DNA of 64,000 bases, from the NCBI RefSeq assembly GCF_009725165.1, contig NZ_WNZW01000004.1:186001-250000 (forward strand), given 5' to 3'. The DNA is from Paenibacillus woosongensis. GTDB lineage: Bacteria > Bacillota > Bacilli > Paenibacillales > Paenibacillaceae. The notes below the pieces were generated by a model, which searched no databases, was not told the origin of the DNA, and saw nothing but the letters and a program-made list of their open reading frames with translations. The position numbers and the translations under genes are program-made. Below, piece after piece: positions 17,700-60,592 of the stretch. Position 1 is the first letter of the stretch; the number at the start of each line of letters is the position of its first letter.

Positions 17700-17727
17700 T
17701 TGAAAAAAAGACTCAATGCGGTATAAT
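17700..17727 (+). promoter_or_regulatory. tRNA-Arg promoter
   Basis: TTGAAA (17700-17705), 16-base spacer and TATAAT (17722-17727), 21 bases before the mature tRNA 5' end. Confidence 0.8.
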
Positions 17728-17748
17728 AATACTGTTGCGTTAAAATGT

Positions 17749-17822
<74 letters not shown>

Positions 17823-17828
17823 TAGCCA

Positions 17829-17853
17829 AAACTCTCCTTTGGAGAGTTTTTTT
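17829..17853 (+). terminator. tRNA-Arg terminator
   Basis: AACTCTCC and GGAGAGTT form an 8-bp stem with loop TTT, followed by a T run. A second identical hairpin occurs 144 bases downstream. Confidence 0.88.
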
Positions 17854-17966
17854 CGTTTCCCAGGGGATGAGAACCCCTTGTGGGGTTCGTCGTAGTGAGA
17901 CCGCCATGCGGAGCGGCAGGACGAACGAAGTCTCGCGCCTGGAGCGCGAGTATCCCTTCTGGGACG
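17854..17966 (+). repeat. tRNA-Arg-linked structured repeat, full copy
   Basis: A 113-base element directly after the tRNA terminator. It can fold into a multibranched shape. The closing stem is TCCCAG-GGGAT (17858-17868) with ATCCC-TT-CTGGGA (17952-17964). Inside are hairpins GAACCCC/GGGGTTC (17871-17888), CCGC/GCGG (about 17901-17916) and CTCGCGC/GCGCGAG (17932-17950). Its 3' end repeats the last 15 bases of the tRNA gene, and sequence then continues as after the tRNA, giving a 144-base period. It lacks plausible coding capacity. A related copy follows the other tRNA-Arg at 29962-30072. Confidence 0.85.
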
Positions 17967-17971
17967 TAGCC

Positions 17972-18083
17972 AAAACTCTCCTTTGGAGAGTTTTTTTCGT
18001 TTCCCAGGGGATGAGAACCCCTTGTGGGGTTCGTCGTAGTGAGCCCGCTGAGCGTAGCGGCAGGTCGAGCGGAGTCTCGCGCC
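17972..18083 (+). repeat. tRNA-Arg-linked repeat, truncated second copy with terminator hairpin
   Basis: Starts with the same AACTCTCC/GGAGAGTT hairpin (17973 onward) and repeats the element up to the GCGCC at 18079-18083, then diverges, so the 3' arm of the last hairpin and of the closing stem are lost. Its inner stem CCGCT/AGCGG differs from the first copy but still pairs. It ends 7 bases before the argS stop codon and its hairpin may also stop argS transcription from the other side. Confidence 0.8.
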
Positions 18084-18089
18084 AATAAT

Positions 18090-19970
18090 CTACATACGGC
18101 TAGGCGCAGGCAAACCAAGCACCTGCAGTGCATCTCCTAACGTCTCCTGGGCTTTGGCAGTCAACCATATGCGAAATGGCTGCAATGCGCTCTCCGCTTT
18201 TAGGACAGGGCAGGACGTATAGAAGTTATTGAACAGGGCTGCCAGCTGGTAGGCATAGCTGCATATCGTATTTGGTGTCAATTCCTTACTGGCATTGTGC
18301 AGGGTATCGAACCAGCTGCTGATATGCCTCAGCAAAGCCCTTTCGGCTGGTTCCAGCGAAATGATCTTGACCGGAATACGGTTCGGCTGAAGATTCCGTT
18401 CCTGCGCTTTCCTTAAGACATTATTGGCACGGGCATAAGCGTATAACAAATACACGCCCGTATTGCCTGAAATTTCAGTAGCCTGCTCTAAGTCGAACAC
18501 CACTTCGGTCTGAAGGCTGAAGCGCAGTAAATAATAGCGTATAGCTGCAGCTGCAATTTCTCTGCTGGATAGGCCGCTTTGCTCCGTGCGTTTGTTCTCG
18601 ATCACGCCCTCCATAATATCCAGTAACTCAGTAACTTTGATGCCAATTCCCTGGCGTCCGGACATGGCATACGAGCTCTTGCCATCGGATATGTCGATTC
18701 CTAATTCTGCGGCCGACGAGGGACTCAGGGAGACGACCCCGTAGCTGACATGATAGAGATTCTCCGCTTCTTTCGCATAACCCAGTGCCTGAAGCGCCTG
18801 CTTCACCATGGCCTGAGGATATTCCTGACGGTAGTCAATGACATTAATAACCGAATCGGCATGGCCGAAACTTTTTTCGGCGATCCCATAAGAGCGGGTT
18901 ATCCATAAATCACCGGAAAATTTCTGATACGCAAAATCTTTATCCAACAGCCCGTATTTCCACAAATGGTAGGCAATATCTTTGGCTGTATACGTTAAAA
19001 TGCCATTGGAACGCACCAGAACTTTGTCTGCGGCATGATCGGTCGCTGCCTTCTGCATGCTGACCTGAACCTGGTCTTCAGCGCTTTGCTTCAAAACCCA
19101 ACACCCAGCCAGCTTGCCTTCGGTTTCTTGGTAAAACAGCGATGTCTTCTGCAACCGCTGAAACGCTGAATGCCAAAACCCTTCCCTTACAATACTGCTC
19201 TCCCAGACGAGCAAATCGTATTGGATCCCGAATGCGCTCATATCCTCAAGATGCTCACGAACGATCCGTTCCGCCGCAAGCATGCCTACCCACGATATGT
19301 TGGAGTTGCCGCATTCCAGGTCATGAAGCACTTCGATTCGCTTCTCGGCCAGTTCAGGATGAATGGCATATGCTTTATTGGTCATTGCGTACAGATCCCA
19401 GCAATAATCTCCGAAACGCCCGTGTTCTCCCGATAAAGGAATGTGCAGCAGTCCAACCACGGTGTCCGCTAATTGATTGCCTAAATCATCGATATAATTA
19501 TGAACTTCGACATCATAGCCGACTCTTCTGAGCAGTCTTACTAACGTATCGCCAATACATGAATTTCTTAGATGGCCGATATGAGCTGACTTATTCGGAT
19601 TGATGGAGGTATGTTCGATGACTATTTTTTCAGCAGAGCACTTCGGTAGCTCGAATTCTTGCTGCATCCATGCTTCCCAGTTGATATATAGATTTATAAA
19701 TCCCGGAGGAACAATCTCGATTCGGCTCAATAAATTTTGCATATTCCCCTGCTGGAGGAGCTCTGCCTTAATCAGCTCTGCGATTTGCAGAGGTGGTTGT
19801 CTAAGCGCCTTTGCCAATTGCATCGCAATATTGCTGGAGTAGTCGCCATGCTCAAGGCTTGCGGGTTGTTCAATTTTGACAATGGGCTCTTTAGCGTCTA
19901 CAACGTCTAGATCTTCACACAGACTCTGAACAGCATTGGTTATGTGCCCCCTTATCCAATGACTTAACAT
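18090..19970 (-). CDS. argS: arginyl-tRNA synthetase
   Basis: Start is ATG 19970 with GGAGGG five bases upstream; the frame extends to 20015 without support and into the leader terminator. The ~626-residue class I synthetase charges tRNA-Arg. Seen: N-terminal Add-1 type domain (LEHGDYSSNIAMQLAK), HIGH motif in KSAHIGHLRNSCIGD, YIDDLGNQLAD, and a KMSKS-region variant SYAMSGRQGIGIKVTELLD (ArgRS often lacks a canonical KMSKS). The C-terminal DALR anticodon-binding helices end in LGLPAPSRM. It is longer than the ~556 residues of B. subtilis ArgRS. A T-box leader controls it, so expression should rise when tRNA-Arg is uncharged. It is convergent with a tRNA-Arg gene. Confidence 0.95.
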   Translation of the reverse strand: MLSHWIRGHITNAVQSLCEDLDVVDAKEPIVKIEQPASLEHGDYSSNIAMQLAKALRQPPLQIAELIKAELLQQGNMQNLLSRIEIVPPGFINLYINWEAWMQQEFELPKCSAEKIVIEHTSINPNKSAHIGHLRNSCIGDTLVRLLRRVGYDVEVHNYIDDLGNQLADTVVGLLHIPLSGEHGRFGDYCWDLYAMTNKAYAIHPELAEKRIEVLHDLECGNSNISWVGMLAAERIVREHLEDMSAFGIQYDLLVWESSIVREGFWHSAFQRLQKTSLFYQETEGKLAGCWVLKQSAEDQVQVSMQKAATDHAADKVLVRSNGILTYTAKDIAYHLWKYGLLDKDFAYQKFSGDLWITRSYGIAEKSFGHADSVINVIDYRQEYPQAMVKQALQALGYAKEAENLYHVSYGVVSLSPSSAAELGIDISDGKSSYAMSGRQGIGIKVTELLDIMEGVIENKRTEQSGLSSREIAAAAIRYYLLRFSLQTEVVFDLEQATEISGNTGVYLLYAYARANNVLRKAQERNLQPNRIPVKIISLEPAERALLRHISSWFDTLHNASKELTPNTICSYAYQLAALFNNFYTSCPVLKAESALQPFRIWLTAKAQETLGDALQVLGLPAPSRM

Positions 19971-20003
19971 GCAATCCCTCCAATAAATTTTGTTGTAAAA
20001 AAT

Positions 20004-20248
20004 AAAAAAGCCCACGTCTCATAAGAGACGAGGACTGATCGTACTCGCGGTACCACTCTTGTTGTTAAACATAAATGTCTAACCACTCATAACATAACGG
20101 TGTCTGCCGGACCTTCCTACTTTACTGTTCAGAAGACCATCTCATGGATCCGTTTCATTATTGACTCCGGCCGGCTCCCACTATCCCGGCTCGCTTGGAC
20201 GTGGAGGACAATAATTACTCTTCCAATCATGGATGTACATATTAAGTT
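20004..20248 (-). promoter_or_regulatory. T-box leader of argS
   Basis: Read on the minus strand, the leader contains the T-box core GAGTGGTACCGCG (around 20046-20058), followed by a terminator stem-loop (20004-20035; GTCTC/GAGAC core with flanking pairs) and a T run. Upstream is a long Stem I region with AGTAAT-type and GCCGG helices. The candidate specifier is CGG (Arg) at 20150-20152 within GAAACGGA; the alternative reading ACG cannot be excluded by eye. TATAAT (minus strand, 20255-20260) precedes it. By T-box logic, uncharged tRNA-Arg binding prevents termination. Confidence 0.88.
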
Positions 20249-20346
20249 TGAACTATTATAACCAATTTACCCATGAATATCCACCTATTTTAAAAGCATA
20301 TTTATCTGAGTGAAAATAATATTTAGTTAAAACGGCAAGAAAACGC

Positions 20347-20401
20347 TTGCAGAACAAAAACGGATATGGTATAAAAAATATAAATCTAAACGTTTAGATT
20401 T
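20347..20401 (+). promoter_or_regulatory. promoter and LacI-type operator of the repressor gene
   Basis: TTGCAG (20347-20352), 17-base spacer, TATAAA (20370-20375). Immediately downstream, 20382-20401 is a perfect 20-bp palindrome centred on AAACGTTT (AATCTAAACGTTTAGATT core), a typical LacI-family site with central CG. The repressor should control itself here. Confidence 0.85.
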
Positions 20402-20433
20402 TGTGAACAGTGATTATATCGAGGAGGTGGAGT

Positions 20434-21471
20434 ATGTCTAACATTAGCATCAAAGATATAGCAGCCAGGGCGAATGTGTCTACGGCTACCGTCTCCTACG
20501 TCCTCAATGGCACGCGGAATGTCCGTCCCAAAACGCGTGAACGGGTTTTGGCGGTGATCGAAGAGCTCAATTATAAGCCAAATGATATTGCTAAAAGCCT
20601 CAAACGCAGACGTACCGATACAATTGGCGTCATTGCCGAAGACGTTACCGTATTTAACACGCCAGAAATTATTGACGGCATTAACGATTATGGCGACCGC
20701 CATGATCTGCATATTTTGCTGACCAACCTGCGTCTGGATAAACGGATCGGCCGCGATTTCGACAACGTCGACAAGTACAAAAAATATGCTACAAGCGCCG
20801 TATCCGAACTGCTCAGCAAGCAGGTGGACGGGATCATTTATGTAGGCGTACATACCCGGGACTTGAGTGGCTTGATCGATACGGAGGGCAAACCGATTGT
20901 TTACACGTATGGGTATACCCAGAATGATATCGCTATTCAATATAACGATGAACAGGCATCCTATGAAGCAATGTCCTATTTAGTTCAGAAAGGACACCGG
21001 CGAATCGCTATAATCAGCGGCTTGATGGATTCGATTCCTTCCCGCCTGCGTTTGAATGGATATTACAAGGCGGTAACAGAGTTCGAACTTCCCTTCGACC
21101 CGCTGTATATTAAAATGGGAGATTGGGAACGGGAGTCCGGCTACCGATTAACGAAGGAATTGCTGGCTTTGCCGGAGCCGCCGACAGCGATTCTATCTAT
21201 GAATGATGTTATGGTTGTCGGGGTTTTGGAAGCGGCAAACGAAGCAGGAGTAAAGGTGCCGGCGGACCTGTCTGTGATCGGGTTCGATAATCGTGAGTTC
21301 AGCGATTATTTAACTCCCCGCATTACAACCATGGATATTCCATTGCATGAAATGGGATACCAAGCGATGGAGGTTCTCCATAACCTCATGCAAGGAAAGA
21401 AAAACGAGCCTGTGAATATGCCGGTCTGCCGGTTGATTGAACGTGATTCTGTAGCTGCCCCGAAGAAATGA
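20434..21471 (+). CDS. LacI family transcriptional repressor of a sugar uptake cluster
   Basis: ATG 20434 follows GAGGAGGTGG. The 345-residue protein begins with the LacI helix-turn-helix and hinge (ISIKDIAARANVSTATVSYVLNGTRNV, then YKPNDIAKSLKRRRT) and continues with a periplasmic-binding-like ligand domain (TIGVIAEDVTVFNTPEIIDGI, GIIYVGVHTR, GHRRIAIISG, AILSMNDVMVVGVLEAANEAGV, VIGFDNREFSDYLTPRITTM). Two near-identical palindromes, before its own gene and before the transporter, define its likely targets. The inducer is presumably the imported sugar. Confidence 0.93.
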   Translation: MSNISIKDIAARANVSTATVSYVLNGTRNVRPKTRERVLAVIEELNYKPNDIAKSLKRRRTDTIGVIAEDVTVFNTPEIIDGINDYGDRHDLHILLTNLRLDKRIGRDFDNVDKYKKYATSAVSELLSKQVDGIIYVGVHTRDLSGLIDTEGKPIVYTYGYTQNDIAIQYNDEQASYEAMSYLVQKGHRRIAIISGLMDSIPSRLRLNGYYKAVTEFELPFDPLYIKMGDWERESGYRLTKELLALPEPPTAILSMNDVMVVGVLEAANEAGVKVPADLSVIGFDNREFSDYLTPRITTMDIPLHEMGYQAMEVLHNLMQGKKNEPVNMPVCRLIERDSVAAPKK

Positions 21472-21505
21472 AAGAATTTTTCGAGACAGCTCCTCTTTTC
21501 CAATA

Positions 21506-21525
21506 AAATCTAAACGTTTAAATTT
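21506..21525 (+). promoter_or_regulatory. second LacI-type operator, before the sugar-binding protein gene
   Basis: This 20-mer equals the palindrome at 20382-20401 except for one base in the right arm (TTTAAATT instead of TTTAGATT). It lies 101 bases before the lipoprotein start. Confidence 0.82.
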
Positions 21526-21606
21526 TTGACCGAATGGTGACAACTTGCCGAAGGAGGCAAGCTCACATATACATGTACCACACATTAGGGAGGGGTCAAT
21601 GTGAAA

Positions 21607-22938
21607 ATGAGCAAGAGTACAAGCAAGGATAACAGCAGGAACAAAAGATGGTTTATGCTAACTCTGGTAGCTGCGTTGTGTCTCAGTTTGCTGTCCGCTT
21701 GCGGCGGCAAAAGTGAAAGCGGTGCCAATTCGCCTGGGACAGCAGCTAATGGAGGCAATAAAGGAACTGAAGGAAATGAAGTGACGCTTCGTTTTATGAC
21801 TTGGGATTCCGGACAGACGCTTCAGCCTTACCAGAATGCAATTAACGCTTTTATGGAGAAAAATCCTGGCATTAAAGTCAAAGTCGAATCCGTACCAGAC
21901 AACTATGATCAGAAGCTGTTGACATCTCTTGCGTCAGATACCGCTCCTGATGTGTTCATGGCCTGGAACTATCCTCTGTACGTACCGGGGGGTGCGCTTG
22001 AAGATATGCAGGCCTGGGTAGATAAGGACAACTATGATCTCGGCAAATATTACCCGATCTTAATGGATTACATGAAATATGACGGCAAACTGTGGGGGCT
22101 CCCGACAACGTATTCTACGCGTGCCATTTACTACAACAAAAAGCTGTTTGATGAAGCAGGCGTACCCTATCCGCAAGACGGATGGAAATGGGATGAATTC
22201 GTCGATACCGTCCAGAAGCTGACCAAGCCCGGACAATACGGATTCATTATGACGCCGGATGATGTGATGACGATGCAGCCATATGTCTGGAGCAACGGCG
22301 GGGACATGGTGAGCGAGGACGGGAAAACGGTGGAAGGCGTCTTGAACAGTGCAGAGAACGTGGAGACGATGACCTTCCTGAAACAACTGTACGACGCCTC
22401 CTCCAAAATCAACTCCGCAGGCAAGTTCAGTACGAATAACGGTTTGGAATCGTTCCAGACAGGGCAAATCGCCATGTTCGACAACGGGATGTGGCCGCTT
22501 GGAGATATTCTGAAGGAAGGTAAGCTGGATATCGGAACTGTGACGCATCCTCTGCCGGAGGGCGGCAGTCTGAAAGGCATTATCCATACGTCCGGCTACT
22601 CGATGCCGAAGTCCGGCAAGAACAAAGAGGCGGCATGGGAATTGATCAAGTTCATGTCGGGTGAAGAAGGCATCAAAATCATCACTGCGAATAAGTTCGC
22701 ATTCTCGCCAGTTATATCCGTGGACGAAGAAAATGGTTACGCCGCGGATCCATATCTAGAAGCCTTCGCGAAAGAATTAGAGGGCAGTGACAAGCTGATC
22801 GCGAGCATGCGGAACGAAAAATGGAGCGAGGCCGAGGATATGATTCGCGCCGGGGTACAGGCGATCTTCTATAACAATGCCGACATTCAGAGCACTTTGA
22901 ATGATGCGGCCAAGCAGGCTCAAGCGGTTTTGAAATAA
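21607..22938 (+). CDS. sugar ABC transporter substrate-binding lipoprotein (family 1)
   Basis: ATG 21607 lies 9 bases after GGGAGGGG; an in-frame GTG at 21601 is too close. Signal and lipobox LLSACGG give a lipid anchor, followed by a Gly/Asn-rich linker. The mature domain is family 1 of solute-binding proteins: VTLRFMTWDSGQTLQPYQNAINAF, DTAPDVFMAWNYPLYVPGG, LPTTYSTRAIYYNKKLFDEAG, and GQIAMFDNGMWPLGDI. It should bind a mono- or oligosaccharide. First gene of the uptake operon under the LacI-type operator. Confidence 0.93.
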   Translation: MSKSTSKDNSRNKRWFMLTLVAALCLSLLSACGGKSESGANSPGTAANGGNKGTEGNEVTLRFMTWDSGQTLQPYQNAINAFMEKNPGIKVKVESVPDNYDQKLLTSLASDTAPDVFMAWNYPLYVPGGALEDMQAWVDKDNYDLGKYYPILMDYMKYDGKLWGLPTTYSTRAIYYNKKLFDEAGVPYPQDGWKWDEFVDTVQKLTKPGQYGFIMTPDDVMTMQPYVWSNGGDMVSEDGKTVEGVLNSAENVETMTFLKQLYDASSKINSAGKFSTNNGLESFQTGQIAMFDNGMWPLGDILKEGKLDIGTVTHPLPEGGSLKGIIHTSGYSMPKSGKNKEAAWELIKFMSGEEGIKIITANKFAFSPVISVDEENGYAADPYLEAFAKELEGSDKLIASMRNEKWSEAEDMIRAGVQAIFYNNADIQSTLNDAAKQAQAVLK

Positions 22939-23020
22939 GGGTTCAAGTACGGATTCACAGTAATGGAAGGATGGGAGGCTGAAAGGCTTCCCCTTCTCCT
23001 CAAATTGAGGTGATGACAAC

Positions 23021-23959
23021 ATGGCACAATCCAGCGCAGATCAGACTCTATTGAAACGTTCCTTCAGAAGGAAAAGGCTTCGTGAGAATGCAGCGGGTCT
23101 ATTCTTTATCTCGCCGTGGCTCATCGGCTTTCTTCTGCTGATGTTCGGCCCGATGGTTTTCTCATTGGGGATCAGCTTCACCGAATGGAATATGGTGGGC
23201 AGCCCGAAATTTACCGGTATTGAAAATTACGTCCATATGTTCACGAGCGATCCTTTCTATTTTAAATCGATGATCGTCACATTTAAATACGTGTTCATTA
23301 TGGTGCCCTTGCAGGTCGTGTTTGCGATACTTATCGCTGTCCTGCTCAACCGGGCCACCTACGGCATTAAATTTTTCAGATCGATTTTTTATTTGCCATC
23401 CCTGATACAAGGGGTAACGCTAGCGCTAATTTTTAGCTGGATGCTGAACGACGATTTTGGGCCAGTCAATTACATGCTGGAGCTTGTCGGACTTCCACGA
23501 GTGCACTGGCTGACCGATCCAAACGTTGCTCTATACGCACTCATATTCATTGCTCTATGGGGCGTCGGCTCCCCGATGGTACTGTACCTGTCAGCGCTTC
23601 GTTCAGTATCCTCTGAATATTATGAAGCGGCAGACATTGACGGCGCAGGTCCCGTACGCAAATTTTTCAATATTACGATTCCGCTGATTACGCCGACGAT
23701 TCTATTTAATATTTTGACGAGCCTGATCTCGGCTTTCCAAACGATTGTTCTTGCGTTCGTGCTGACAGGAGGCGGGCCGGCAAACTCAACCTACTTCTAT
23801 TCTCTGCATGTGTACCGCAATGCGTTCACCCATTTCAAAATGGGCTACGCCTCGGCCATGGCCTGGGTGATGTTCATTCTCATCGTGCTGCTGACCGGCC
23901 TCGTTCTGGCTTCGTCCAAGTATTGGGTTCATTATGAAGACGACGGAGGTGGACGTTAA
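23021..23959 (+). CDS. sugar ABC transporter permease 1 (CUT1, UgpA/MalF type)
   Basis: ATG 23021 follows GAGGTGA. The 312-residue protein has six membrane helices, the family opening AAGLFFISPWLIGFLLLMFGPMVFSLGISFTEW, and the EAA loop SVSSEYYEAADIDGAGPVRKFFNITIPLITPTILFN that docks the ATPase. It overlaps the second permease by one base (TAATG). No ATPase gene is present in the cluster, so a shared MsmX-like ATPase encoded elsewhere is likely (inference from how Bacilli CUT1 importers work). Confidence 0.94.
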   Translation: MAQSSADQTLLKRSFRRKRLRENAAGLFFISPWLIGFLLLMFGPMVFSLGISFTEWNMVGSPKFTGIENYVHMFTSDPFYFKSMIVTFKYVFIMVPLQVVFAILIAVLLNRATYGIKFFRSIFYLPSLIQGVTLALIFSWMLNDDFGPVNYMLELVGLPRVHWLTDPNVALYALIFIALWGVGSPMVLYLSALRSVSSEYYEAADIDGAGPVRKFFNITIPLITPTILFNILTSLISAFQTIVLAFVLTGGGPANSTYFYSLHVYRNAFTHFKMGYASAMAWVMFILIVLLTGLVLASSKYWVHYEDDGGGR

Positions 23960-24798
23960 TGCATGCGCTAGAGAGTAAAAAACGTACCCAAACAGTCATG
24001 GTTTTTGCTTTGACGGTACTCTGTGCAGCAGCATTCCTCTTCCCGATCGCCTGGATGCTGTCCACGGCGGTGAAAGCGCCGGAGGATATTTTTACAGCAA
24101 AGCCAGAGCTTATACCGACAAATTGGCAGCTGCATAACTTTGCCGATGCTTGGAAGGCGCAGCCGTTTGGCCGCTTCCTTCTGAACACGCTGATTGTAGT
24201 GGGCGTATCGACTCCGTTTGCCATGCTGTCCGCTACGATGGTCGCCTTCGGATTTGCCCGGATCAATTTCTGGGGCAGGAATGCTCTGTTTCTTTTCGTA
24301 ATCGGTACGATGGTAATTCCTTGGGACGTAACGGCGATTCCGTTATATATCCAATACAACAAAATGGGACTCATTAACACGCTTTGGCCTATGATTTTGC
24401 CGGGGGCGTTTGGCTCCGCGTTTTTCATCTTCCTAGCCCGGCAGTTTATTATGGGAGTTCCGCGAGATTTGGACGAAGCGGCTGAAATTGACGGGTGCAA
24501 CCGCTGGCAAATTTATTGGAGCATTATTTTGCCGTTATGCCGTCCGATTGTGGTCGTCATTGGGGTGTTCCATTTTGTCTGGTGCTGGAATGAATTTTTA
24601 ACGCCGCTCATTTTTATAAATGACCAGAGCATGTACACGCTGCCGCTTGGAATCAATTTATTCAAAAATGCTTTTAATATTGAATACGAGAAACTGATGG
24701 CGGTATCCTGCTTATCGGTTCTGTTCCCGGCAACGCTGTTTTATTTTACGCAAAACCTTATTCTAGGGGGCATTTCGCTCAGCGGAGTCAAAAAATGA
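23959..24798 (+). CDS. sugar ABC transporter permease 2 (CUT1, UgpE/MalG type)
   Basis: ATG 23959 shares its A with the stop of the preceding gene, so translation is coupled. The 279-residue protein has six helices with the usual LFPIAWMLSTAVKAPEDIF after helix 1, TMVIPWDVTAIPLYIQYNKMGLINT, the EAA loop GVPRDLDEAAEIDGCNRWQIYWSIILPLCRP and the end GGISLSGVKK. Forms the channel with permease 1. Confidence 0.94.
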   Translation: MHALESKKRTQTVMVFALTVLCAAAFLFPIAWMLSTAVKAPEDIFTAKPELIPTNWQLHNFADAWKAQPFGRFLLNTLIVVGVSTPFAMLSATMVAFGFARINFWGRNALFLFVIGTMVIPWDVTAIPLYIQYNKMGLINTLWPMILPGAFGSAFFIFLARQFIMGVPRDLDEAAEIDGCNRWQIYWSIILPLCRPIVVVIGVFHFVWCWNEFLTPLIFINDQSMYTLPLGINLFKNAFNIEYEKLMAVSCLSVLFPATLFYFTQNLILGGISLSGVKK

Positions 24799-24829
24799 TA
24801 AAGGTGACAAGACTGAGGGGTGGAGACAT

Positions 24830-27262
24830 ATGAACATACTGAATAGTCCAAAGTTTGAACTTGCCTTTACAGAGCGTGGAGCGGTAAAGTCTCTGAGGAT
24901 GAAGGACGATCCTTACGCGATGAACTGGGTCGTTGATCCCGGTTATTTGGCAGAGGCTGGTTATGATGATGTTGATAAGCTATTCGGGGAATGGACAGCG
25001 GTAGTGAACGGACGTACAATACGAAGCTTCGATCTGATTCCGGCGATTAGAAAGGTCAGTGAGGGCTGTGCCGAAGTCTCCTTCGATACAGGGGGGCTGA
25101 CGATCACACTGACTTACCGGCTTGAAGAGGAGCGGATGATCTGGCAAATTGAGAGCTTCAATTCTACAGACAAGGAGCTGCGGGTCGATGGATTCCATCT
25201 CTGGTTCTCATTAGCCTACGTGATGTTTCGCGATGATAACGTCGTACGCAACATACGCGAATCCTGTGCGGTATTCGCCCATATGGGAGGGGACTTCTCC
25301 AAGTTTGCAGCAATCCGGCGCAGTAATGAGGCCCCCCATCTCGGTATTTATGGAAAAAAGGGGCGTTCCGCGGCGTTCGGTTCATTTTGCAGATATGAGA
25401 ATCGCTTTTTGGAGCAGGTGTCCCCGTCGCTTGACGGTCTGCTGTTCCATCGCTTATCGCTAGTCGAGAATGGCAGCTCGATGCCGGAATCGGCAGCGGT
25501 CGATTGGATTTACGGGGATGAGTATGATCCGCTGATTTTGGATGCCGGGCAGCGTGTGCAGTGGGAGTATGCGTTCGCTGCTTGTGATGATCAGGAGGAT
25601 TTTTATCACCAGGCATTAGAGCACGGGCATCCCCGCTGGACCTATACTCCCGTGCTGACGTCAGGCGGGTTATTTCAAGCGGAACTGGAGCTTCCGAATG
25701 GGCAACAGGTCAGGCAGGTTAGATTGCTTACTTCGTCATCTCAAGGTGTGGTCCAGGAGGAAGACATTACTTCCTTTTTCGCAGCGGATGGGCAGCGCCC
25801 TCAGCGATTCCAAGCCGCCTTGCATCGGACGGAGCCAGGTGAGCATAAGCTTGAGCTGCTGCTGGAGGATGGGCGCAAGGATATTCTGGTGTGGAACGTG
25901 CTTGAACCGATCGGCCGTATTTTGGAGAAGCGTGCGGAGTGGCTCTGCCGCAACAATTACGACGAAGAGGGGACGATGGGAAGAGCGCATGCATTTTTAC
26001 CGCTGTCGAATCAGGGAGAATCCCTAGGGAAGCTTACTTTTCTGCTTATGAAAAATAGTCTGGCGACCCCCGTTCGGGAGCAAGTGGAAAAGGCGGAGGC
26101 ATCCGCAGTGCTCGATATGAAGCGTCATTGGTTTGAACATGGCAACTTTACTAAGCCGCGTGCTTTATATGGAAGCTTCTATCGCATATTTGATCTGGAC
26201 TATATCGCCCATGTGTTTTATTTGCTCTCTCGCATGGAGGCTTCGCTGCTTAAATTGAATACGCCCCATACTTATTTAGAATGGGCGGCGGAAGTGCTTG
26301 CTGTCCGGTTGAACCCGGACTGCCACCAAGGTCAGAGGGAGAAGGATGAAACAGGTTTAAGCGGCGTGTTTATATTGTATATCGACGACTTGCTCAAAGA
26401 TTTATGGGAGACTGGAATGCTGGAATGGCATCAGCGCTTGACGCGGCTGTGGCAGGAGTTTGGGATAAGGCTGGAACGTAATTCGGAGCCGTTTGCCGGT
26501 GCAATTACAGAGCATTTCTATGATAATGCCGGTTTCGGGCCGACGTGCGAGACACTGCTCTCGGTTGGACTGCGGGATGAAGCGGAGAAATACGGTCAGT
26601 TGATCTTGGCTAATATCGGCTTCAGCAATGATTATCGGGCGCAAAATCCGGATCGCTGGTGGGAAGCCTTATCGTACATGATCCATTCCTTATGGGGAGG
26701 TCTGGTAGCGGCTTCTTCCCGGGTAGCTTACGAGCATCTTGGAGATTCGCAGTATTTGGAGGCCGCCTATCGCGCGGCGATGGCAGTCTTCAACTGCTAT
26801 GATTGGAACGTCACATCTACGCCGCGCCGCTTGCAGCCCGGGGAAGCGGCTTCGACCTATAGCGTGGCAGCCCCGAACCTGAACATGCCGTCACTGTCGC
26901 GCGATCGTTTCGGACAATCCGTGTTCCGGAACGCGAGCGATCCGTTGTTTGCTTCCTTGTTCGCTAATGCGACAGGGGACGATTGGGACATGGGAGAAGA
27001 GCTCGTGGCCTATTTGCTCGGATTCGGCACGACGACTTATTTATATCGCGATGCGAAGGGACAACTGCGTTGTGTCAACGGATATATTACGGAGGATGGG
27101 GATAGCTGGATCATAACCAGCTATGCAGCTTATCCGATGAGATATGTTGTTCAGGAAGAAGGGCTGGTGCTTGAGGCGAGCAAAGGCGAAGTGCTGAGGC
27201 AGGCTCGGTTCTGGGAAGGAAAGCTGTCGGCGCTGGAAGCCGTGCGTGAAAGTGAACGATAA
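24830..27262 (+). CDS. large putative carbohydrate-active enzyme, 810 aa, family not certain
   Basis: ATG 24830 follows GGGGTGGAGAC. There is no signal peptide, so it should act in the cytoplasm on the imported sugar. The first ~300 residues look like a beta-sandwich (many strands, for example VSFDTGGLTITLTYRLEEERMIWQIES). The region from ~400 onward is helical with regularly spaced aromatic and acidic residues (FYRIFDLDYIAHVFYLLSRME, ITEHFYDNAGFGPTCETLLSVG, DRWWEALSYMIHSLWGGL), as in (alpha/alpha) barrel hydrolases or lyases. It may belong to a DUF5695-like group; that is a recollection, not a search result. Last gene of the LacI-controlled operon, 31 bases after the permease. Catalytic residues cannot be named. 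Confidence 0.65.
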   Translation: MNILNSPKFELAFTERGAVKSLRMKDDPYAMNWVVDPGYLAEAGYDDVDKLFGEWTAVVNGRTIRSFDLIPAIRKVSEGCAEVSFDTGGLTITLTYRLEEERMIWQIESFNSTDKELRVDGFHLWFSLAYVMFRDDNVVRNIRESCAVFAHMGGDFSKFAAIRRSNEAPHLGIYGKKGRSAAFGSFCRYENRFLEQVSPSLDGLLFHRLSLVENGSSMPESAAVDWIYGDEYDPLILDAGQRVQWEYAFAACDDQEDFYHQALEHGHPRWTYTPVLTSGGLFQAELELPNGQQVRQVRLLTSSSQGVVQEEDITSFFAADGQRPQRFQAALHRTEPGEHKLELLLEDGRKDILVWNVLEPIGRILEKRAEWLCRNNYDEEGTMGRAHAFLPLSNQGESLGKLTFLLMKNSLATPVREQVEKAEASAVLDMKRHWFEHGNFTKPRALYGSFYRIFDLDYIAHVFYLLSRMEASLLKLNTPHTYLEWAAEVLAVRLNPDCHQGQREKDETGLSGVFILYIDDLLKDLWETGMLEWHQRLTRLWQEFGIRLERNSEPFAGAITEHFYDNAGFGPTCETLLSVGLRDEAEKYGQLILANIGFSNDYRAQNPDRWWEALSYMIHSLWGGLVAASSRVAYEHLGDSQYLEAAYRAAMAVFNCYDWNVTSTPRRLQPGEAASTYSVAAPNLNMPSLSRDRFGQSVFRNASDPLFASLFANATGDDWDMGEELVAYLLGFGTTTYLYRDAKGQLRCVNGYITEDGDSWIITSYAAYPMRYVVQEEGLVLEASKGEVLRQARFWEGKLSALEAVRESER

Positions 27263-27289
27263 ACGGATTTGATGCCCACAGATAACTGT

Positions 27290-27337
27290 AACCGCAATCG
27301 CAGATCGACTCAGATTTGCGGTTGCGGTTGTTTTTTT
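27290..27337 (+). terminator. terminator of the sugar operon
   Basis: AACCGCAATCGCA pairs with TGCGGTTGCGGTT (one mismatch), followed by TTTTTTT. It could also act against the convergent PilZ gene on the other strand, though no T run is seen there. Confidence 0.85.
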
Positions 27338-27349
27338 AATATGTATGTA

Positions 27350-27727
27350 TTACAGTACTACGATTCGCCGGGAGGCAGCCAGGGACCGCAGCTCAATATT
27401 GAGGCTTTCTTTCATGTCTTCGGTCAAATTTAGCGCAAGGCCATAATGGAATACGGCGTTCTCATGCTCTTTCTGCCAGCGAATGCTGCCCGGGAACTTA
27501 TGTAGATCCTCATTGAGCCGCACATGAACTGTGGCTTCAATCTGATGGGTGGATGCTCTAAGGTCCAGTTTGGTCTGGATTCGGCATCCTGACTTGCTAA
27601 TATCGATCAGCTCAATTTCTGCTAATTTACTGTGAACAGGAACAGCGTTAATTTCTCTGATTTCAATCCAGCAGGGTAAGGGTGTGATCATTGAGTAACG
27701 GAAGGGATCCGTTCTTCGTGTTGTCAT
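27350..27727 (-). CDS. PilZ domain protein
   Basis: Start at ATG 27727 with GGAGGA upstream (minus strand). The 125-residue protein is a single PilZ-like domain: arginines near the N-terminus (TTRRTDPFRY) and the second motif IELIDISKSGCRI, matching (D/N)xSxxG, the cyclic di-GMP contact of the family. The spacing of the first motif is not canonical RxxxR, so nucleotide binding is plausible rather than certain. It is monocistronic, convergent with the sugar operon. Confidence 0.75.
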   Translation of the reverse strand: MTTRRTDPFRYSMITPLPCWIEIREINAVPVHSKLAEIELIDISKSGCRIQTKLDLRASTHQIEATVHVRLNEDLHKFPGSIRWQKEHENAVFHYGLALNLTEDMKESLNIELRSLAASRRIVVL

Positions 27728-27940
27728 AGTTACGTCCTCCGCAAATAGGAATATAATCCGGTAATCCAGGATATTTTAGGTAATTGATATTATAATATAT
27801 CGGGTTTAGTTAATTATTTGATGAGCTTCAAAAACTCAATTAAAAAATATATTTTGCAGTCATGGATATTTCAAATGAAGGAAGGGACTCAGGGGTTGAG
27901 CGGAGGAGAATACCTCAGAGAGGGAGCGGCAATGACGGAA

Positions 27941-27988
27941 GCAAAAATAAAGGTTGTTCATAAGAGCTTTGGGCTCTCTGAACAACCT
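27941..27988 (-). terminator. terminator of the glutathione-peroxidase operon
   Basis: On the minus strand AGGTTGTTC pairs with GAACAACCT (9 bp, perfect) with an inner AGAGC/GCTCT stem, followed by TTATTTTTGC. The rest of 27728-28009 holds only the PilZ promoter region. Confidence 0.88.
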
Positions 27989-28009
27989 CAGTTTAGTGTT
28001 GTGGAGCGG

Positions 28010-28501
28010 TTAATCAGCATGGATCAACGCTTGCCGGATATCAGACTCTAGAACTGAAGGCTCCGTACGCGCGCTGTACTGCTTAAGAATGTTTCCGTTC
28101 CGGTCCACAAGAAATTTGACGAAATTCCATTCGATGTCTCCTGTCCGGTAAGGTGCCGGAACGTGGCTGACAAGATATTTATACAACGGGTGGGCGTTTT
28201 CGCCTTTGACATCGATTTTGGCGAAGAGAGGGAAGGTGACCTGGTAATTCAAATCGCAGAAACTTTTGATTTCCGCTTCCGTACCTGGCTCTTGCCCGGC
28301 AAACTGATTGCAGGGAAAGCCGAGAACGACCAAACCTTGTTCGCCATACGTATCATATAAATGCTGCAATCCCTGATATTGCGGTGTTAATCCGCAAGCG
28401 CTGGCCGTATTAACGATCAGCAGCACCTTATCTTTGAATTGCTCAAGCGTGACAGTTTCTCCCTCGATGGTCCGGACTTCAAATTGATATATTTGTGACA
28501 T
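28010..28501 (-). CDS. glutathione-peroxidase-like thiol peroxidase
   Basis: The 163-residue protein carries the family catalytic set: Cys36 in NTASACGLTPQY, Gln65 in GFPCNQFAGQEPG, and Trp in IEWNFVKFLVDRNG. The active residue is cysteine, not selenocysteine, so it is probably thioredoxin-dependent like other bacterial members (BsaA type). It follows the thioredoxin-like gene by 5 bases and is probably translated by coupling because its own ribosome site is weak. It ends in a strong terminator. Confidence 0.93.
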   Translation of the reverse strand: MSQIYQFEVRTIEGETVTLEQFKDKVLLIVNTASACGLTPQYQGLQHLYDTYGEQGLVVLGFPCNQFAGQEPGTEAEIKSFCDLNYQVTFPLFAKIDVKGENAHPLYKYLVSHVPAPYRTGDIEWNFVKFLVDRNGNILKQYSARTEPSVLESDIRQALIHAD

Positions 28502-28506
28502 TATCG

Positions 28507-29088
28507 TTATACCAAATCACAGGCTTCCGCTGGCATCCAGTGGGCGTCCTGTCCTTCCCATTTGACATTGCAGCCGATCGGATTCGTTAACGGCACGCTG
28601 ACCGGCTCGCCTGAGGTAAGCTCCGTCAGAGCTCTTTCCAAGTCATTAGTGGTCATTTTTGAAGTTTCACGAGGGTTGTCCACTCCACGGCCTGTATAAA
28701 CAAGGCGGCGCTGTTTGTCAAATACAAAGAAATGAGGTGTGCGCAGCGCACCGTAAGCTCTGGCTGCGTCTTGGTCCATATCCCGAAGGTAAACCCATGG
28801 GAACCGGTGCTCTTCCATTCGAAGAATCATATGCTCAAAAGAATCATCGGGATGCGTGTTTTCGCTATTTGCGTTAATGCCGACAAAGGCCACGCCTTTG
28901 TCTTTAAATTTCTCCGCCGTTTGGCGAGTGACTTCGTCGGAACCGACCACGTAAGGGCAGTGATTGCAAGTGAAGAAAACTACGAGATAATCGGCCCAAG
29001 CGAAGCTGTCCAATGAATACAAAGCCCCATCTGTCGCCTTAAGTTCAAAATCGGGAGCCTGCGCTCCAAGCTGTAACGTAAAACTCAT
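28507..29088 (-). CDS. thioredoxin/peroxiredoxin-like redox protein
   Basis: Start at ATG 29088 with a GAGG-type site upstream. The 193-residue protein shows a thioredoxin fold opening with [15 protein letters not shown] as in AhpC/TSA proteins, then [15 protein letters not shown], whose CxxC pair (Cys41, Cys44) is the likely redox centre, and [21 protein letters not shown] containing the cis-proline. No signal peptide, so cytoplasmic. First gene of a two-gene unit with the glutathione-peroxidase-like protein; together they suggest peroxide handling. Confidence 0.88.
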
Positions 29089-29216
29089 GTAATACGGACC
29101 TCCTCATCAATAGTTTGATAGATTGCGTTTCAACATGAGCAGAATTTGGTAGACAGCCAGACGTCTTTATTGTACTTCATTTTGCTTGAGATGCCTAATT
29201 GAAAAACAAATGAAAA

Positions 29217-29264
29217 GCGAGCCCTTCGACATATCAAATGCAGATATTTGTCGAAAAAACTCGC
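29217..29264 (-). terminator. terminator after the membrane protein gene
   Basis: On the minus strand GCGAG pairs with CTCGC around an inner TTCGACA/TGTCGAA-type stem, followed by TTTTCATTTG. Confidence 0.65.
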
Positions 29265-29327
29265 TCGGTTATGTACTCGAAATTTTAAAAATAACCCCTT
29301 AAAAATGCCCTCTCTGTGATTTAATTA

Positions 29328-29795
29328 CTACTGAAGCAGCAAGTGAAGAGTGCTTGCCAGGAACATTAACAGGCCGGTTGCGACCAGGTCGATCAGCAGA
29401 GTTACAATAAATTTCACGATCAAATTGGTAGGCAGCCGGAACACGCTCATATTGGCTGCTGCAGCAAGAATGCCGATCAGGGCGCCGATCGCTCCCCCGA
29501 TAAAAATAAATACCAGCGGCAGGAAACACCAAACCTTAGCTACGACAGGAAGCGGCTTAGCAACCTGAATGAGCGAGCCGTCAATTATGATATTGGGGAC
29601 GTCCATTCCGAATAAGTCCTTTTTCCACACAGCCTCTACTTCCTGCCCGTCATCCCGGCGCAGCATCATCGGCTGTCTCTTCTTGGCGGTAACCAGCTGG
29701 TTATTCACCATAAGCTTGGCATTGCCGCCAATGCCTGAAGTCACGACTTCCAGGGTTTGATTGGCGAAGCCCGTGGGGGTAATACTGTAACGCAT
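29328..29795 (-). CDS. unknown membrane protein, 155 aa
   Basis: Start at ATG 29795 preceded by AGGAGG. The first ~85 residues are a soluble beta-rich part (VTSGIGGNAKLMVNNQLVTAKKR, FGMDVPNIIIDGSLIQV). Then come a hydrophobic stretch (about 88-112) and a second one (about 124-152), giving two, possibly three, membrane helices with a C-terminus in the membrane. I do not recognise the family. It stands alone between a terminator and the tRNA-Arg repeat region. Confidence 0.7.
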   Translation of the reverse strand: MRYSITPTGFANQTLEVVTSGIGGNAKLMVNNQLVTAKKRQPMMLRRDDGQEVEAVWKKDLFGMDVPNIIIDGSLIQVAKPLPVVAKVWCFLPLVFIFIGGAIGALIGILAAAANMSVFRLPTNLIVKFIVTLLIDLVATGLLMFLASTLHLLLQ

Positions 29796-29932
29796 AATTT
29801 TCCTCCTTCATCAAATGAAAAATACATCTTTATTTATATCGGAAGGAATGGGAAAATTTTCATAGTTATTGTATGGGGTAAATGAAAAATTTGCGGTATT
29901 TTAGCGGATTGTGTTGCAAAATATTTATTTTT

Positions 29933-29956
29933 AAAACTCTCCTGATGGAGAGTTTT
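29933..29956. terminator. hairpin beyond the structured repeat at the second tRNA-Arg
   Basis: AAAACTCTCC and GGAGAGTTTT form a 10-bp stem with a 4-base loop. It matches the hairpin that follows the repeat copy at the first tRNA-Arg and can work in both directions, though no long T run follows. Confidence 0.6.
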
Positions 29957-29961
29957 GGCTT

Positions 29962-30072
29962 GCGTCCAAGAAGGGATACTCGCGCTCCAGGCGCGAGACT
30001 CCGTTTGCCCTTCCGCTGCGCGTGGCGGTCTCACTCCGACGAACCCCCAAGGGGTTCTCACCCCCTGGACGC
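29962..30072 (-). repeat. tRNA-Arg-linked structured repeat, second locus
   Basis: A 111-base element after the terminator of the minus-strand tRNA-Arg. Closing stem GCGTCCA (30066-30072 complement) with TGGACGC (29962-29968 complement), then GGGGT/ATCCC. Inner hairpins GAACCCC/GGGGTTC-like, CCGC/GCGG and CTCGCGC/GCGCGAG are as in the copy at 17854-17966. The closing stem sequence differs from that copy on both arms yet still pairs. Confidence 0.85.
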
Positions 30073-30098
30073 AAAAAAACTCTCCTGATGGAGAGTTT
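30073..30098 (-). terminator. tRNA-Arg terminator, second copy
   Basis: On the minus strand AAACTCTCC and GGAGAGTTT with loop ATCA, followed by a T run. Confidence 0.88.
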
Positions 30099-30104
30099 AC
30101 TATA

Positions 30105-30178
<74 letters not shown>

Positions 30179-30372
30179 ATAAAAAATAACAAAAGTAAAA
30201 ACGCAAGCAAAAAATATTTTAACACACCAAATGCTGCGAATCAATAGGTAAATCAATAAAAATATTCCTTCATTAATAGCATTCACAATCGGCTCATAAA
30301 TAAAGTCTTGAATACAAGTATTTTTATCTCGAATACGTCTATGCTATAATCTCAATTAATTGCAAATACGGA

Positions 30373-60274: not shown

Positions 60275-60592
60275 ATTAACTTAAATTAACCGTGAAAAGA
60301 CATGGAACGGGAAGAGTAGGCAGTGAGCCCTTCAGAGAGCGGGATTGCAGCGCTGGAAGATTCCGCAGGATGCAGCTGGCCGAAGTCACCCGGGAGTCGC
60401 TTGTTTGAGCAGCTATGCAATTTGTAGTCGTTAGAACGGGCCGGTAGCAGCCGTTATCTGTATGAGTGTTGCGAGTTTGTTCGGCGATTCCGCGAGTGTA
60501 GCGGTTTCGGTCTGGGTCAACCCGCAAAACAAAGGTGGTACCGCGAAAGTAAAGCCTTTCGTCCTTTGAGACGAGGGGCTTTTTGTATTTTT
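60275..60592 (+). promoter_or_regulatory. T-box leader of valS
   Basis: Contains Stem I with specifier GTC (Val) at 60385-60387 in the usual GAA-NNN-A setting. The T-box core AAAGGTGGTACCGCG is at 60531-60545. A terminator GCCTTTCGTC/GACGAGGGGC followed by TTTTTGTATTTTT lies at 60551-60592. The specifier agrees with the downstream gene, so uncharged tRNA-Val should relieve termination. Confidence 0.95.

Follow-up and report, generated by a model that had tools for sequence, protein, structure and literature searches.

Some integrative elements and casposons use tRNA 3' ends, and BIMEs are repeats that lie dispersed between genes. Closest in layout to the element analyzed here is RtT RNA (RF00391), which, according to one account, is freed from E. 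coli tRNA operon transcripts, has also been reported in Pasteurellaceae and has been linked to the stringent response, its role being unclear (PMC4986893). A second account reports similarity to RtT for BIME/REP repeats and discusses RtT-like sequences as attenuators within BIMEs (PMC2965389). In E. coli K-12, RtT units lie 3' of tyrT and tyrV, starting with GGGGAAGGATGAGAAG at tyrV and closing with AATCCTTCCCCCACCACCA, the tRNA-Tyr end. This kind of layout is already known, and what is new, relative to the sources searched, is its Bacillota members (a literature search that covered few subscription papers returned no report of them).

The window (the whole stretch of 64,000 nucleotides of Paenibacillus woosongensis DNA that was analyzed) holds three copies of the element at two tRNA-Arg(UCU) genes (Table 1). 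Copy 1 starts 34 nt 3' of the first of these genes, directly past a terminator-like hairpin, and stands in tandem with copy 2 at a spacing of 144 nt. BLAST finds these three copies and no others in the source genome. The covariance models described below find seven matches (R1) and eight, some of them weak (R2); those of the additional matches that were read lie after tRNA-Glu, tRNA-Ser(CGA), tRNA-Ser(UGA) (a fragment) and tRNA-Gly(UCC). Folded as a single RNA, the copy 1 stretch has a z of -3.18, with 1 of 200 shuffles folding equally well or better, and the copy 3 stretch a z of -1.93 (10 of 200). At family cut-offs, Rfam gives the window copies no family name, and its weak matches on the element were read as noise or as the tRNA itself. 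The structured element that a sequence-only reading had placed just after the tRNA-Arg(UCU) terminator is real, as is the related one after the second gene, and the copied tRNA 3' end at the element's close, also remarked on there, does match the element's own tRNA-Arg. The accompanying statement that no named family has such a layout is not supported, RtT having it. We think that the element is probably the Bacillota counterpart of E. coli RtT, that is, a cassette of ~110 nt that lies behind a tRNA gene, is maintained by recombination and is partly transcribed.

Table 1. Features of the two tRNA-Arg(UCU) loci of the window (positions count from its first nucleotide)
Feature	Position	Strand	Basis
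sigma-70-like promoter, TTGAAA-16-TATAAT, 5' of first tRNA-Arg(UCU)	17700..17727	+	consensus scan, 11/12 matches; predicted
tRNA-Arg(UCU), 3' end copied at the element's close	17748..17823	+	ARAGORN; Rfam RF00005
intrinsic-terminator-like hairpin between tRNA-Arg(UCU) and copy 1	17828..17850	+	
element copy 1, complete, 109 nt, tail a copy of the tRNA 3' end	17858..17966	+	R1 match 17864-17956, 87.1 bits
TCCCAG, lengthening P1 of copy 1	17858-17863	+	
copy 1 P1, 5' strand GGGAT (partner ATCCC at 17952-17956)	17864..17868	+	sequence and fold
copy 1 P2 hairpin, GAACCCC/GGGGTTC	17871..17888	+	
copy 1 P4 hairpin, CTCGCGC/GCGCGAG	17932..17950	+	
copy 1 tail, ATCCCTTCTGGGACG, the tRNA-Arg 3' end from the T-loop onward	17952..17966	+	
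terminator-like hairpin, second copy, 3' of copy 1	17972..17994	+	
element copy 2, 3'-truncated, lacking a tail	18002..18083	+	R1, 55.4 bits
hairpin repeated with the same sequence 3' of copy 3 tail	29934..29957	-	read from sequence; missed by terminator scan
element copy 3, complete, closing stem GCGTCCA/TGGACGC	29962..30072	-	R1 match 29973-30064, 81.5 bits
terminator-like hairpin between second tRNA-Arg(UCU) and copy 3	30077..30098	-	
second tRNA-Arg(UCU)	30104..30179	-	ARAGORN

Two covariance models were used to follow the element beyond the window. A regular-expression search yielded 81 copies, of which 65 passed a filter; 43 non-redundant and 3 typed copies were viewed, and 24 were taken into the Arg-rich set A1. 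R1 was made from 24 sequences. (The exact-pattern loci include three from Paenibacillus species; one locus, L113, which is the same as L086, was excluded from the seed pass.) R2 was made from 32 sequences, one of them Arg-linked and none of them RtT. R1 matches 37 of 40 genomes of the genus at E 0.01, 57 of 196 of the family at 1e-4, 157 of 296 of the order at 0.001 (in 16 of 48 genera) and 36 of 398 of the class at 0.001, four of these beyond the order, while R2 matches 7 of 398 genomes of the phylum; the genome samples overlap and strict filters drop weak matches. Two of the seven (G1117 and G999) lie outside the class, and their elements follow tRNA-Ser(GCU) and tRNA-Arg(ACG), each with its own tail. 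Within the genus, tRNA-Arg(UCU) genes were recovered from 39 of the 40 genomes, at 77 places in total, and 57 of these places have at least one R1 match on the 3' side, with one to five matches, complete or partial, per place.

Linkage to tRNA genes, which the sequence-only reading had proposed for checking, is supported. Among 40 loci picked away from known Arg genes, 37 are preceded on the same strand by a called tRNA, two show the 3' end of a tRNA that was itself uncalled, and one (L155) has neither; 28 of the 29 elements at a next batch of 20 loci have a tRNA upstream, and the last follows a tRNA end at a contig edge. In all, 205 of 213 model matches follow a tRNA and share its strand, always on the same side of it (this count omits three L192 matches, from the same region as L233, and keeps the duplicate L090/L203, both from genome G033). 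The other eight are a degenerate copy (L155), five whose tRNA is cut off or uncalled (L186, L189, L223, L104 and one match of L217) and two weak matches (L071, L040). A dispersed repeat with no tie to tRNA genes is thereby rejected; BIME/REP sequences, which share with the element that they are structured and protein-less, differ from it in this respect. The hosts of the 205 are tRNA-Arg(UCU) (102), Glu (40), Ser(GCU) (37), Asp (11), Ser(UGA) (10), Ser(CGA) (3), Arg(ACG) (1) and Gly(GCC) (1), and Gly(UCC) makes a ninth species, so that the notion of tRNA-Arg as the sole target has to be given up. The Gly(UCC) case (L290; source genome, C11 near 567520, minus strand) is a divergent, longer element with its own tail. 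Since it was found only at E 0.044, the element family is wider than the models.

The element's tail repeats the host tRNA sequence, beginning in the T-loop and including CCA where the gene encodes it. At nine positions that discriminate between tRNAs, 128 of 205 tails agree with their own tRNA in 8 or all 9; agreement with the tRNA of a different amino acid never extends to 7. Outside Arg(UCU), 85 of 103 tails reach 8. Arg(UCU) tails do so in 43 of 102 cases; terminal copies there are commonly truncated, and shifts by one base and a tail type that has diverged are frequent as well. A model-free scan with tRNA genes masked finds the tRNA's own tail within 300 nt downstream for 115 of 582 tRNAs (a proportion that gives no frequency in nature, since the scanned loci were mostly chosen for the element), and finds it 0 times upstream and 0 times on the other strand; tails of other amino acids are found on average 4.05 times (0 to 8). 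A random-tail control (43 of 582) proved to be confounded by neighboring tRNA genes, and the masked control was used in its place; apparent tails for Leu(GAG) and Pro(UGG) are whole neighboring tRNA genes and no elements. The direct repeat that results begins in the T-loop, with an identical run of median 19-23 nt for Arg(UCU), Glu, Ser(GCU) and Asp. What this means for annotation is that an element tail can be misread as what is left of a tRNA or as an attachment site.

A complete copy opens with an inverted, T-arm-like 5' end, continues with three or four helices as its body and closes with the copy of its own tRNA's 3' end. The consensus helices are P1 (GGGAT/ATCCC), P2 (GAACCC/GGGTTC), one or two middle hairpins, and P4, whose middle pairs are either Watson-Crick (CTC-GC-GC/GC-GC-GAG) or, in many other copies, tandem G.A (CTC-GA-GC/GC-GA-GAG). 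The sequence-only reading had taken the closing stems TCCCAG/CTGGGA and GCGTCCA/TGGACGC of the two window loci as a covarying pair: the difference stands, but two copies alone cannot show covariation; larger alignments do show it. In the Arg-rich set A1 the covariation score is 0.164 (shuffles, 0.071 +- 0.009) and in A4, the set from other tRNAs, 0.168 (shuffles, 0.073 +- 0.007); 0 of 500 shuffles, which ignore relatedness, reach either score, and slid controls do not exceed 0.078. (For A4, covariation was counted on a given fold with P1, P2, P3a and P4 that is obtained with ribosum scoring; RNAalifold defaults yield a different, smaller fold of 12 pairs.) Pairs changed on both sides number six in P3, four in P4 and one in P1 in A1, and six, all in P4, in A4, where the count is not above that of shuffles (89 of 500 reach 6); P2 has none in either set. 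Some unpaired bases are near-invariant across families and tRNA types. Selection on structure, as proposed from the window alone, is supported by the aligned copies. Counts that compare the strands (G-U versus A-C) are 44 versus 13 in A4, with 25 of the 44 in one column, and 19 versus 26 in A1. P1 tracks the T stem of its host, with GAGAT/ATCTC for Arg(ACG) and GGGAA/TTCCC for Gly(UCC), one case each; pairing of the 5' arm extends to the acceptor portion of the tail in Arg, Gly(UCC) and Ser(UGA) types. Swapping in another tail gives poorer pairing with the P1 arm in 87 of 116 comparisons, whereas the Ser(GCU) and Asp types have no preference of this kind for the own tail.

The element's occurrence is uneven even among loci with the same host tRNA species. 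Among 30 tRNA-Glu loci examined (of 46 such genes in 10 genomes), 13 have the full element with tail, 5 have a 5' fragment only and 12 are empty. In one genome (G004) nearly the same spacer and element recur at three tRNA-Glu loci; in another (G037) a different near-identical spacer/element pair occupies two loci with differing downstream sequence, and a locus in the related genome G036 whose flank matches G037 has another spacer. Tandem units that end in a partial copy are found, though not at all loci: arrays frequently close with a 3'-truncated copy, and fragments, where present, sit at the array's far end. Full, fragmentary and empty sites and near-same cassettes at several loci imply that cassettes are gained, lost and transferred, which bears out the earlier suggestion of a duplicating unit. 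The constant boundary of these events is the tRNA 3' end. Transfer may take place by site-specific insertion, by target-copying or by exchange between tRNA paralogues.

These same observations also fit a selfish, protein-less mini mobile element. A recombinase or reverse transcriptase acting in trans would insert it at the tRNA T-loop, and that this is what happens is a real possibility, if one that we do not favor. On such an account the tail would be a duplicated target or an att-like block of identity, and the fold the enzyme's recognition mark, a proposal that we likewise entertain without preferring it. The place at which the direct repeat starts, the changed spacer at a matching flank and the position of fragments at the far end of arrays all fit. 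There is a likeness to integrative elements and casposons, in that the tRNA 3' end is present on both sides of the insert as a direct repeat, the far end being displaced downstream, but the element differs from them in having no integrase, in an insert of only ~100 nt and in that the insert is itself the conserved fold. The units seen, at ~110-190 nt, are too short to contain a recombinase, and neither an encoded protein nor a partner enzyme was identified. Strand and tRNA side are constant throughout; simple insertion of a circle into a tRNA of another species would yield a chimeric tRNA; and gene conversion between identical tRNA genes could move cassettes equally well. An Arg-type query found no phage or plasmid match, exact patterns found none in viral contigs, and a phage or plasmid origin is rejected within the sequences searched. 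We judge the selfish mini element to be the strongest rival and to be compatible with reading the element as an RtT-like cassette. (At one tRNA-Arg(UCU) locus, L091, the element's expected place is occupied by what we take, by eye, to be a group II intron.)

Whether the Bacillota elements and E. coli RtT share an origin is a separate question. RtT units also lie behind a same-strand tRNA, in tandem at tyrV, each closing with the 3' end of that tRNA and CCA; the copies at tyrT, lysT and lysV end in their own tRNA tails, as Bacillota elements do, and the 5' arm is complementary to the tail. The tRNA's own tail lies within 300 nt downstream of 11 of 25 tRNAs in seven E. coli stretches (2 Tyr, 6 Lys and 3 Arg(ACG), the one downstream of argY being the copy behind argZ). 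Rfam calls RtT at the Tyr and Lys sites; the own-tail units behind argQ and argZ (both tRNA-Arg(ACG); L297) fall below its RtT cut-off. At lysQ the terminator is repeated 3' of the tail, as in the window, and at lysV its start is visible where the stretch ends. On the other side, Bacillota elements have other body helices, belong to another phylum with Arg(UCU), Glu, Ser, Asp and Gly as hosts, and are not called by the Rfam RtT model.

It may be that the two arose independently and that hairpin units repeatedly capture tRNA 3' ends; we give this some credence and lean against it. The bodies bear a weak similarity to each other, an equal score being reached by 3 to 34 of 300 shuffles; R2 has no match in any of the eight further stretches of E. 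coli, which include lys and arg loci; and the Rfam RtT model exceeds its gathering cut-off (45 bits) in 0 of 119 order genomes and in 1 of 14 controls, E. coli. (The best scores below the cut-off are 28.7 bits for L294, an element with its own tail after tRNA-Ser(UGA), and 24.1 bits for L217.) Against independent origin stand the same order of parts in both, the GATGAGAA start at tyrV, the GAGCGAAGCGAG hairpin just 5' of the tail at lysV and lysW, and the ranking by R2 of the tyrT copies: in 114 kb of sequence, four of these rank right after the window copies (E 0.019 to 0.076, with the next noise at 0.84), and within 50 kb of E. coli they rank first.

Another explanation is that tRNA 3' ends undergo slippage and unequal exchange, which would keep duplicating a functionless, hairpin-rich trailer as a neutral by-product. 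The varying number of model matches at Arg loci, the similar spacers and hairpins within arrays, and the frequency of decay and absence are in keeping with it. We nevertheless regard it as improbable in view of the covarying helices and the near-invariant unpaired bases in different families and tRNA types. Close direct repeats of ~20 nt are expected to be lost easily, and the element is kept, despite having them, in the 157 order genomes counted above. That it is a terminator or attenuator module guarding downstream genes is very improbable: terminator-like hairpins adjoin it at Arg loci and RtT-like attenuators have been discussed, as noted at the outset, but in tRNA-Glu and Asp operons it has no obvious U-run and more tRNA genes follow 3' (by eye).

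In the counterpart-of-RtT reading that we prefer, recombination at the shared tRNA 3' end would multiply cassettes and keep their tails matched to the host. The cassette would be transcribed within a tRNA operon or by read-through and then cut free during tRNA processing, as is stated for E. coli RtT. It tells against this reading that transcription needs read-through wherever a terminator-like hairpin stands between the tRNA and the element, as it does at Arg(UCU) loci and at some of the Ser(GCU) loci. In several types P1 rebuilds the host's T stem and part of its acceptor stem, so that the freed RNA may mimic the top half of a tRNA and might engage tRNA-processing or tRNA-sensing factors. 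A broader proposal, which we find doubtful and advance tentatively, is that RtT is one branch of a class of cassettes, templated by tRNA tails and present in at least two phyla, whose ends and, in part, closing stems match the host tRNA, which move between tRNA genes, and whose transcripts, as top-half mimics, would tune tRNA supply or the stringent response. Elements linked to nine tRNA species across the order supply hundreds of natural variants and natural empty sites; with these and the tail rule, it becomes testable whether one is dealing with a parasite of tRNA genes or with a regulator made together with tRNAs.

Several observations touch on the surroundings of the element. The window's two tRNA-Arg(UCU) arrays (17748-30179) lie ~12 kb apart and point toward each other, an orientation that the two genes also have in 31 of 33 genus genomes with both on one contig (3.7 to 32.3 kb apart), and the intervening segment could be inverted by way of these arrays. 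In another genome (G016), a copy of the element (L114/L064) lies in a stretch with no called tRNA, beside what looks like the end of an insertion sequence; this end borders on the Arg array, too. At L217 a Bacillaceae-1 RNA (RF01690; 1254-1321, minus strand) lies between tRNA genes in a cluster that it shares with two elements. The window's first array is converged upon by argS (arginyl-tRNA synthetase; 18090-20239, minus strand), which has a T-box leader at 20021-20239. T-box leaders resemble the element as RNA elements tied to tRNA biology, this one being located upstream of argS beside the array; they differ in that Rfam does not call the element a T-box, and in that the element copies the tRNA end, which a T-box complements. 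A second T-box leader lies elsewhere in the window, at 60294-60569 (plus strand).
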